From NCBI GenBank assembly GCA_016185705.1, contig JACPMZ010000003.1, positions 1-64,000 of the forward strand: a stretch of DNA of 64,000 nucleotides. Reading direction: 5' to 3'. The position numbers were made by a program, and so were the translations under genes. Each line of letters opens with the position of its first letter. Position 1 is the first letter of the stretch. Source of the DNA: Candidatus Woesearchaeota archaeon. GTDB taxonomy: Archaea > Nanobdellota > Nanobdellia > Woesearchaeales > UBA10216. This document shows positions 50,741-53,967 of this stretch, piece by piece. Under the pieces are notes generated by a model. It was not told the DNA's origin, searched no databases, and worked only from the letters and a program-made list of their open reading frames with translations.

Positions 50741-51188
50741 TATTGTATATACCTTAAATTTAAAAAGCGGATTAGATTCGCTATTAGCTACAACGGGGTC
50801 GCTTCTCCGGTTCATCCCTAAACATCCGGAGAGAGAACTTACAGATGTGGTTGAAGAGCAGCAGTCCCAGAGGCTATCCTTTCTGCATTTAGCTGCACTC
50901 CATATGAAGGCTGTTTTAGGCAACCCCCTTGGATGCCATTATATAAACTCGCAAACAGAGGAAACAACATATTTTGACGATGTGGTTGAAAGACAGAGAT
51001 TTCTGGAAAAACATTACCCGGATTAATGAATCTGGCATAAGCGATAACTTTTAAAACCTTATTCTTCAATTTTTCCGAATATTCCACTGGACATTCCGGA
51101 AGATTTTCGGATTTTTTCAGTCGAGAAAAACACCATTGGACACTGGACATGTGTAGATAGGGTATATAAAGGAGTAATTCTTAATGCT

Positions 51189-51373
51189 CGGAGGACACGC
51201 AAAACCCCTAAATTATGCTTTTTGGTCAAAGACGCGAAAAGCAATTACGGAGTTTTGCTAAGAAGTCCTCCTCGCCAACTACGAGATTTCTTTCAACAAG
51301 TGAAAGAAACTAAAACTTGCCTAGCAAGTTTTAGTCCTGAAAACTTACACTTTTGTAAGTTTTCAGAAATCTC
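51189..51373 (+). ncRNA. multi-helix structured leader RNA upstream of the LAGLIDADG ORF
   Basis: GGAGGAC/GTCCTCC (51190-51196 / 51265-51271); GAGATTT/AAATCTC (51283-51289 / 51367-51373) enclosing CTTTC-GAAAG, an 11-bp perfect hairpin (51310-51334) and a 12-bp perfect hairpin (51337-51366); TATATAAAG promoter-like box upstream. Confidence 0.65.
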
Positions 51374-51406
51374 AACGTTAGATTGGGGTTTTTGGAGGTG
51401 AAGAAA

Positions 51407-52543
51407 ATGAAAGATGAAGCAACAATTAACTGGTACGATTTAAAAGATAGCCAAGTTTTGTATTTAGAATACTGTACAATGAAGGATTTAATTGATAAAG
51501 GAATTAAGAAAGCTGGTTCTTTGAGCAAATTAGGTTTAGAGCTTAATTCCATGCAATTTTATAATATATTGAGAAATAATGAAGGACTATCTGTTAAGAA
51601 CTTGAAAAAACTTTTGGAATTTTTGAAAATAGAGTACGATTTTATAAATGGAGAGATAACGGAAATAAGAAAAGGAAAAAAGTGTTCTATTAGAAACCCC
51701 AAATACCCTATTGGTTTGCATAACCCTAAAATGGGTTCTTTATTGGGACATTTGATGTCGGACGGTTGCTTGTATTATGATAAATCTAGGGAAAATCTAA
51801 TTAGAACTAAATATTGTGGTGATGAGCAAGAATTAATTGATAAGTTTATGAATGATTTAAAGGATGTTTTCGGAGAAGTTCATTTTAATCGCGAATTTGA
51901 AAGAAACTGCATACAAATAAGAATAGGAAACGGAATTGTTGGTGAAGTTTTCAGGAGAGCAGGGGCAACAATAGGTAAAAAGTATAAATTAAATAACGGT
52001 TTACCTTGGATTGTAAAAAAAGGGGGTAAAGAACTCAAAAGGTCTTATTTATCTGCCATATTTGATGATGAGGGTTCAGTTGGAAATAACCCTTTCCCAT
52101 ATGTTATCTTATCAAGGAACATTCACTGGACGTTTAGTGACACAGAAAAGCGTATATTATCCAGACACATTGCGCCATTAATGAAAACCAATTTTTTCCC
52201 AACAGGTCATTTTACAAAGCGAATTTCAATCGGAATGTTAAAGAATGTTTTAGTAGAAACTAATGCGAAAGAGCTATTAACCAGAATATTGGAAGCGAAG
52301 CCTAAGCTGCTTGTTGAGGAATCACAATTACTGGAAAAAACTTTTAACATAACGAACTACACTTATGTGATTTCTTTCCAATTAACGTCTGGGAATAGTT
52401 ATAGCCTGCAGTCCTCGCTTGTGATAAGAAATAAAAAAGATGTCATAAAATTTTATAATGAGATAGGTTTTTCATTAACAAAAAAGCAAAAGAAATTAAA
52501 AGAGGCTCTAACCAGTAAAAGGTGGTTAGATTATGGTGCTTAA
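51407..52543 (+). CDS. LAGLIDADG homing endonuclease
   Basis: two LAGLIDADG motifs LLGHLMSDG and YLSAIFDDEG; AT-rich; SD GGAGGTG upstream. Confidence 0.85.
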   Translation: MKDEATINWYDLKDSQVLYLEYCTMKDLIDKGIKKAGSLSKLGLELNSMQFYNILRNNEGLSVKNLKKLLEFLKIEYDFINGEITEIRKGKKCSIRNPKYPIGLHNPKMGSLLGHLMSDGCLYYDKSRENLIRTKYCGDEQELIDKFMNDLKDVFGEVHFNREFERNCIQIRIGNGIVGEVFRRAGATIGKKYKLNNGLPWIVKKGGKELKRSYLSAIFDDEGSVGNNPFPYVILSRNIHWTFSDTEKRILSRHIAPLMKTNFFPTGHFTKRISIGMLKNVLVETNAKELLTRILEAKPKLLVEESQLLEKTFNITNYTYVISFQLTSGNSYSLQSSLVIRNKKDVIKFYNEIGFSLTKKQKKLKEALTSKRWLDYGA

Positions 52544-53967
52544 ACTATATGATACCTTAAAGAGAAAAAAGGAAGCCCTGAAGCTTAAGGGAAAATCACT
52601 GGGGATATATACTTGCGGGCCAAACAAAATCTCTGAATAGAGTTTTTGGGCATGCCGTTTACGATTATCCTCACATCGGCAATTACAGGGCTTACATAGT
52701 CAGCGACATCCTCAAGCGGTATCTGCGCTACCGCGGATTCAAGGTAAAGCAGGTTATGAACATAACAGACGTGGACGACAAAACAATCAAGGGAGCGCAG
52801 AAGCAGAAAATACAGCTAAAGGACTTCACCAAAAAATATGAAGATGCTTTCTTTGAAGACCTGAAGACGCTGAACATCCTGCCTGCCGACAAATTTCCAA
52901 GGGCTACCGAGCACGTTCCTGAAATGATTGAATTGACCAAAAAACTGATAAAAAAGGGGCTTGCATACAAAGCAGATGACGGCAGCGTGTATTACAGCGT
53001 GGGCAGGTTTAAAGACTACGGCAAGCTTGCCGGACTTGACATTAAGAAGCTTAAAACAGGAGCATCCGGCAGAGTATCAGCGGACGAATACTCAAAAGAG
53101 AATGTGCAGGACTTTGCGCTGTGGAAAGCATACACTCCTGACGATGGAAAGGTTTTTTGGAATACAGAGCTGGGCCGCGGAAGGCCGGGCTGGCACATCG
53201 AATGCAGCGCCATGTCAATGAAATACCTTGGAGAGACGTTTGACATCCACTGCGGAGGAATTGATCTGGTGTTCCCGCACCATCAGAATGAAATTGCGCA
53301 GAGCGAAGGCGCAACAGGCAAAAGATTTGTCAGGCACTGGGTGCATAACGAATGGCTGCTTGTCGAAGGCCAGAAAATGTCAAAATCGCTTGGAAACTTC
53401 TACACTTTAAGAGATGTGCTGAAAAAGGGTTATGACAGCAAGGCAGTTCGCTATTTGCTGCTTTCAACGCATTACCGGCAGCAGCTCAACTTTACGTTTG
53501 CAGGATTGGATGCTGCGAAGAACGCTGTTGAGCGGCTGCAGGAAGCCATACGGAACCTGAAAAACGCCAAGACTGCCAAGGATGACGAAGAAATAACCCT
53601 GATGATAACAAAAGCGAGAAAGCAGTTTGACGATGCAATGGATGACGACCTCAACATCAGCGAAGCACTGGCAGTGGTGTTTGAATTCACAAAAGCCATC
53701 AACAAAGCTCTGGAAGCAGGCGTAAGCAAAAGCGATGCAGACGACGCCATCGCTTTGCTTGAGGATTTTGATGAAATTCTTGGCGTAATGGACTTTACCG
53801 AGGATGTTGCATTAACAACTGAGCAGCGCCGCATGATAAATGAGAGGGAGCAGCTTAGAAAACTCGGCAGGTACAATGAAGCTGACAAAATAAGGGCGCG
53901 ATTAAGCAGGATTGGCATACAGCTGGACGACACTTCTGAAGGAGTCAGAGTCAAAAAGCTTAAATAG
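52533..53967 (+). CDS. cysS: cysteinyl-tRNA synthetase, interrupted by 31-nt putative BHB intron (52624-52654)
   Basis: MVLKLYDTLKRKKEALKLKGKSLGIYTCGP[31 nt]TVYDYPHIGNYRAYIVSDILKRYLRYRGFKVKQVMNITDVDDKTIKG...KMSKSLGNF. Confidence 0.93.

Follow-up and report, generated by a model that had tools for sequence, protein, structure and literature searches.

Since 2002, short BHB introns have been recognised in archaeal protein genes; their size leaves no room for an endonuclease ORF, which makes their spread a standing question (PMC2738675). In a 64,000-nucleotide stretch of a Candidatus Woesearchaeota assembly (GCA_016185705.1, contig JACPMZ010000003.1, positions 1 to 64,000; hereafter the window), a homing endonuclease gene with an elaborate leader adjoins a cysS gene that carries an insert of this kind (Table 1). 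The locus raises two linked questions, namely what the RNA in front of the endonuclease gene is, and whether an endonuclease can serve an intron that lies outside its own gene. The genomes compared here are sequence data alone, mostly assemblies from uncultured organisms.

Table 1. Features of the endonuclease cassette and of cysS in the window
Feature	Position	Strand	Basis
Promoter: CACTGGACA boxes (51085-51094, 51141-51150) and TATA box (about 51163-51169)	51085..51169	+	
Conserved structured leader RNA (new family; models R1/R2)	51187..51397	+	covariance models; Rfam without match
5' domain: P1 51190-51196/51265-51271, P2 51199-51208/51249-51258, P3 51216-51222/51237-51243	51190..51271	+	pair counts, structure-free covariation
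P4 hairpin, 3' domain; enlarged here by two inserted hairpins (51309-51335, 51337-51366)	51283..51374	+	
LAGLIDADG homing endonuclease (predicted), 378 aa, N-terminal helix-turn-helix-like domain	51407..52543	+	profile, structure, selection evidence
cysS exon 1	52533..52623	+	sequence comparison
BHB intron (predicted) in cysS, 31 nt, GGGCCAA^...^CCGTTTAC	52624..52654	+	empty site in 13 relatives; identical in 79% locus
cysS exon 2	52655..53967	+	sequence comparison

The original prediction described a free-standing ORF with two LAGLIDADG motifs whose stop codon overlaps the start of cysS. Both motifs, LLGHLMSDG and LSAIFDDEG, are present with their catalytic acidic residues, and the TAA of the ORF overlaps the cysS ATG at 52533. 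The ORF is preceded by a strong SD sequence (GGAGGTG), and the D and G of its first motif are invariant in a 16-protein alignment. Its Pfam match is weak (LAGLIDADG_3, E 0.006). An AlphaFold2 model built from 16 relatives (pLDDT 85) matches PI-PfuI (Z 17.2, rmsd 2.4, 196 aligned), I-Tsp061I (Z 14.3) and I-DmoI (Z about 13.8), by which the product is modelled as a LAGLIDADG-fold endonuclease, with DNA cleavage predicted. The gene is under preserving selection, since dN/dS is 0.12-0.13 among three relatives. A search of contigs returned a single locus, 79% identical, in Candidatus Woesearchaeota isolate ARS1199 (G002, locus L031). Viral contigs gave no relative of the protein, and two patterns conserved in the RNA had no exact counterpart there; a tRNA finder detected no tRNA gene within the window. 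Elsewhere, a tRNA-like gene beside a distant endonuclease relative appears to hold more than one insert (G036, L007 near 1310-1460).

The leader had been predicted to hold two perfect 7-bp long-range stems, one of them closing a cloverleaf. Both stems are real (GGAGGAC/GTCCTCC, which is P1, and GAGATTT/AAATCTC), and the leader folds with an energy of -83.8 kcal/mol (z = -8.3, 0/200 shuffles). The cloverleaf stands in part: GAGATTT/AAATCTC does enclose arms, of 5, 12 and 13 bp, but the two long ones belong to an insertion carried by this copy. In their place, the 79%-identical locus has one plain hairpin, and among the close relatives compared they occur in the window's copy only. The conserved element is P1-P2-P3 together with hairpin P4, the elaborate cloverleaf being specific to this copy. 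Within the 5' domain lies a near-invariant internal loop, YAAAUWA/AUUAY.

Homologous leaders were found at the 79% locus and, in part, at a 71%-identical locus (G016). A further copy in G018 lies inside cysS, before an unrelated PD-(D/E)XK-like ORF, and shows compensatory changes in P1, P2 and P3. The G018 cassette (L062:2998-4350) divides cysS into two ORFs, the second of which starts in overlap with the endonuclease stop; the gene may be either split or interrupted by a larger intron. A first covariance model (R1), built from these four leaders (window, G002, G016, G018), found about 140 copies in 71 of the 352 genomes of the order (Woesearchaeota), with up to seven per genome, and a second (R2), built from 87 copies, added more genomes, including one (G626) from a different order of the same class; the E-values of such home-made models are rough and the genome counts are not phylogenetically independent. 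In the 87-copy alignment, 93.4% of cells are paired and 26 of 37 pairs have double-sided changes, although these pairing counts are favoured by an alignment fitted to the structure. Lack of covariation in homologues had been named beforehand as a refutation; 405 compensatory cells were counted, against 107.5 +/- 9.5 in shuffles (0/500). Slid controls reduce pairing to 37-50%, a structure-free mutual-information scan places its top eight column pairs all within the model, and individual leaders folded alone adopt the same structure. The leader matches no family in Rfam. It is a new RNA family, and searches of open-access papers yielded no description of the RNA, of the endonuclease/mini-intron pairs or of the CACTGGACA promoter box.

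Almost every intact copy is directly followed by an ORF, mostly a LAGLIDADG endonuclease, which bears out the suggestion of a structured RNA element associated with these genes. Pfam assigns 51 of 82 downstream ORFs to LAGLIDADG_3, five to HNH_repeat and two to 23S_rRNA_IVP, in addition to the PD-(D/E)XK-like ORF; the RNA is therefore independent of nuclease type. The two IVP cases (L134:947-1303, L168:3702-4064) place the RNA before a 23S rRNA intervening-sequence protein, a four-helix bundle and not a nuclease. Of the 87 copies, 83 are followed at a near-constant distance by an SD and start codon. Upstream, 75 of 86 copies carry a CACTGGACA box between -39 and -60 relative to the first nucleotide of the RNA (control windows, 11/2311), and a TATA box lies mostly 21-33 nt upstream; together they locate the start of transcription at, or close by, the beginning of the RNA. 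Because of this promoter position and the SD and start codon that follow, the RNA is most simply a 5' untranslated leader.

Such an RNA could be a ribozyme, self-cleaving or lariat-capping, through which the endonuclease mRNA has its 5' end processed, in the manner of GIR1 upstream of I-DirI. Its near-invariant unpaired nucleotides, its location at the mRNA 5' end and a fold conserved across many ORF types would suit this role. Rfam ribozyme and group I models give no match at E up to 10, nor in a further search at E up to 0.5, and the 5' domain is a single extended P1-P2-P3 hairpin in which no pseudoknot was detected, so that we consider a ribozyme improbable. The earlier suggestion of a degenerate group I-like ribozyme is likewise unsupported, the Rfam group I model giving no match either at the gathering threshold or with E relaxed to 10.

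An RNA that acts in trans, as guide or cofactor of a nuclease ribonucleoprotein of OMEGA/HEARO type, would account for RNA and nuclease genes being constantly side by side and behaving as mobile elements. The HEARO-like layout that had been predicted is indeed present, but nucleases with at least three unrelated folds share this RNA, and comparison with the flanking DNA gave no guide-like match. Longest matches between RNA and flanks show no excess, with 10.1 nt against 9.8 nt in controls (8.5 against 8.4 near the insertion), and no variable segment of guide length stands out in the RNA alignment. We regard a trans-acting RNA as very improbable.

The role that fits best is that of a cis-acting mRNA leader. 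In some subgroups the SD lies within the 3' strand of P4 or in a covarying stem, yet SD pairing over all leaders is not above that of shuffled leaders (0.63 vs 0.76), which speaks against simple SD sequestration as a general mechanism. The cassette of G004 (L270:60-330) keeps the promoter and the 3' hairpin but has no P1-P3, a loss of the 5' domain in nature that weighs against the cis-acting role.

The CACTGGACA-TATA pattern is not confined to cassettes. It occurs several times per genome, also in genomes in which no RNA was found, and never in the reversed control. In Woesearchaeota it precedes radA, Cas4-like nuclease and DinD-like ORFs (L238, L222, L228, L235, L231, L234), the last named by eye, as Pfam gives only Bro-N. 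Among 20 readable radA loci (L239-L268), a box lies within 900 nt upstream in 15 and box plus TATA in 11, compared with 0/20 in downstream controls. These promoters may mark a candidate DNA-repair regulon in these archaea, from which the endonuclease cassettes would have borrowed theirs; the papers searched describe no such regulon. The shared promoter also invites the reading that the RNA itself is a host regulatory leader, either riboswitch or protein-binding, of this regulon and was captured with the promoter by endonuclease genes. However, none of the 87 copies examined lies before a host repair gene, and G001, G005, G012 and G028 have the promoter with no RNA found; capture of a host leader is thus unlikely.

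The second question concerns the insert in cysS. Its junction lies exactly where it had been predicted. The close relative G001 has the exact empty site TGCGGGCCAACCGTTTAC, and 13 relatives in all lack the insert and have an empty site. Every cysS with an insert of 31-33 nt has the endonuclease directly upstream or, in G018, a remnant of a lost endonuclease (0/1000 shuffles align as well) beside a retained intron. Two further genes, carB and rnhB, show the same arrangement, their introns being 20-38 nt long. At carB, G004, G007, G010 and G013 of the window's family have both endonuclease and intron, as do G197 and G213 from a different family; G011 has the intron alone, and six relatives have neither. 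The nuclease ORF at carB is of LAGLIDADG type in G007, G010, G197 and G213 but of HNH-repeat type in G004 and G013; an intron site is therefore not bound to one type of nuclease. At rnhB, G211 and G007 have introns of 22 and 38 nt, respectively, that interrupt the same codon, and a cassette adjoins each, in differing orientation.

Drawn by hand, the cysS, carB and rnhB inserts all fit a 3-4-3 BHB geometry (two 3-nt bulges, 4-bp helix), the outermost central pair in cysS being G-A. Predicted excision restores the reading frame at conserved motifs (CGPTVY, AGEFDYSGSQ and DEAGRGP). The carB BHB is 96.4% paired with 13 compensatory cells (0/500), and its exon-intron helix covaries from GGC/GCC to GGT/ACC, a synonymous exon change matched in the intron; the rnhB helix similarly changes from GGC/GCC to GGA/TCC. 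An automatic BHB scan of neighbouring genes gave 32 matches near cassettes and 275 in 1928 control windows, a weak excess over a background too high to count alone, and only motif-restoring cases were kept. Many RNA copies have no recognisable intron in the neighbouring gene, and the intron link therefore rests on the conserved-motif cases.

Several further arrangements were seen at these genes. Two BHB-like mini-introns lie close together in the first codons of carB in G011 (L279 near 1390-1500) and G013 (L120). In G010 (L066:5328-6347), the endonuclease reading frame continues across carB exon 1, in the frame of that exon, to a stop codon within the intron; splicing would therefore fuse endonuclease and CarB. 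Intron-free rnhB genes beside cassettes (L157, L174) read GIDEARRGP or GIDESRRGP in place of GIDEAGRGP, possibly a recoded, cut-resistant site. Cassettes also recur in different genomes at the 3' ends of mcm (L138, L151, L162) and htpX (L115, L163, L169), and at those of rtcB (L149, L179) and superoxide dismutase genes (L175, L178), which suggests targets at gene ends.

Within the window's family, the intron is present in 7/7 cases with the endonuclease (3 cysS, 4 carB) and absent in 19/21 cases without it (cysS 13/14, carB 6/7), an association with a Fisher p of 3e-5 across species that are not independent. This joint presence and absence at two genes, together with the empty sites, favours the earlier proposal of an endonuclease/BHB-intron pair acting in trans. 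Alternatively, the inserts could be old BHB introns inherited vertically, which lie near endonuclease genes by chance because such genes favour conserved neighbours; the introns without endonuclease in G018 cysS and G011 carB, and the other endonuclease cassettes with no intron nearby, are what this reading expects. Against it, distribution is patchy within genera and is shared at two genes, and an identical intron occurs in species whose cysS synonymous sites are saturated. Old vertical inheritance therefore seems an unlikely source of the pattern. Between G000 and G002, the leader is 91% and the ORF 82% identical and the intron is identical at 31/31 positions, while the rest of cysS is 72% identical. 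These values fit a recent exchange of cassette and intron between species. For carB, transfer of the cassette between families was considered from RNA identity alone and dropped, as the difference was too small (0.66 vs 0.60).

On balance, the explanation that we hold to be probable is a homing cassette that is mobile, has a conserved mRNA leader acting in cis and spreads a separate BHB intron devoid of an ORF. Computation has established a structured RNA family that lies near the expected 5' end of the transcript and accompanies endonuclease ORFs, the pairing of endonuclease with intron, and a cassette and intron more similar between species than the gene around them; cleavage and splicing we infer, as we do cis-regulation and any ligand. 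The cassette would consist of a promoter common to host repair genes, the structured 5' leader RNA, a strong SD and the LAGLIDADG ORF, inserted directly upstream of cysS. The endonuclease would cut cysS alleles that lack the intron, at the conserved CGP-TVYDY codons or close to them (junction CGGGCCAACCGTTTAC; intron-free junction TGCGGGCCAACCGTTTACGAT), and repair from the carrier chromosome would copy the adjacent cassette together with the separate 31-nt intron, which would destroy the cut site and block recutting. The tRNA splicing endonuclease, a family present in 7/7 genomes checked, would remove the intron from cysS mRNA. The leader RNA, a riboswitch-like 5' domain beside a ribosome-binding region, would control or stabilise in cis the expression of whichever endonuclease it is carried with.

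In phage collaborative homing, the endonuclease gene lies outside the intron and adjoins the intron-bearing gene, and both are co-converted. Such trans homing by free-standing endonuclease genes with neighbouring ORF-less introns (PMC2988022, PMC3984707) shares with our loci an endonuclease outside the intron, its place beside the intron-bearing gene and the proposed co-conversion. The loci described here differ in being archaeal, in having a BHB rather than a group I intron and LAGLIDADG rather than phage-type nucleases, and in the conserved leader RNA. Introns in cbf5 of Desulfurococcales and Sulfolobales are likewise short (16-44 bp) BHB introns of pre-mRNA, in a conserved protein gene and with patchy gain and loss (PMC2738675); no endonuclease was linked to them, whereas here an adjacent cassette supplies one and the genes are cysS, carB and rnhB.

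The leader RNA also has partial parallels. The mRNAs of phage T4 homing endonucleases are controlled by hairpins, which are small and gene-specific. Like these mRNAs (post-transcriptional control in T4 is reviewed in PMC3014915), the cassettes have a structured 5' region near the ribosome-binding site; unlike the T4 hairpins, it is a conserved two-domain RNA family before many nuclease types. HEARO and the OMEGA RNAs of IscB are similarly structured RNAs recurrently beside an endonuclease ORF in mobile elements, and differ from the upstream mRNA leader found here in their unrelated structure and in the several nuclease folds and missing guide match of our family (PMC9755519). No IscB/HNH-RuvC partner was encountered, the partners of the RNA being LAGLIDADG, PD-(D/E)XK, HNH-repeat and IVP proteins. 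In archaea, Woesearchaeota included, the group I introns that come with LAGLIDADG genes are catalytic introns in rRNA genes (PMC6125680); they too combine LAGLIDADG genes with structured RNA, but our leader gives no group I signal.

The cysS, carB and rnhB cases offer a testable proposal for how BHB introns spread, with an adjacent cassette working in trans. As the leader RNA is common to unrelated homing nucleases, its function probably concerns homing generally and not one enzyme. A bolder reading, which we advance only tentatively and think rather doubtful, is a new class of DPANN mobile element in which interchangeable endonucleases with unrelated folds have in common a single RNA module for sensing or catalysing something that homing requires, stand under a repair promoter, and spread minimal BHB introns in trans. 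If this were true, the RNA would be a new riboswitch or ribozyme class, and the origin and movement of ORF-less archaeal mRNA introns would be explained.
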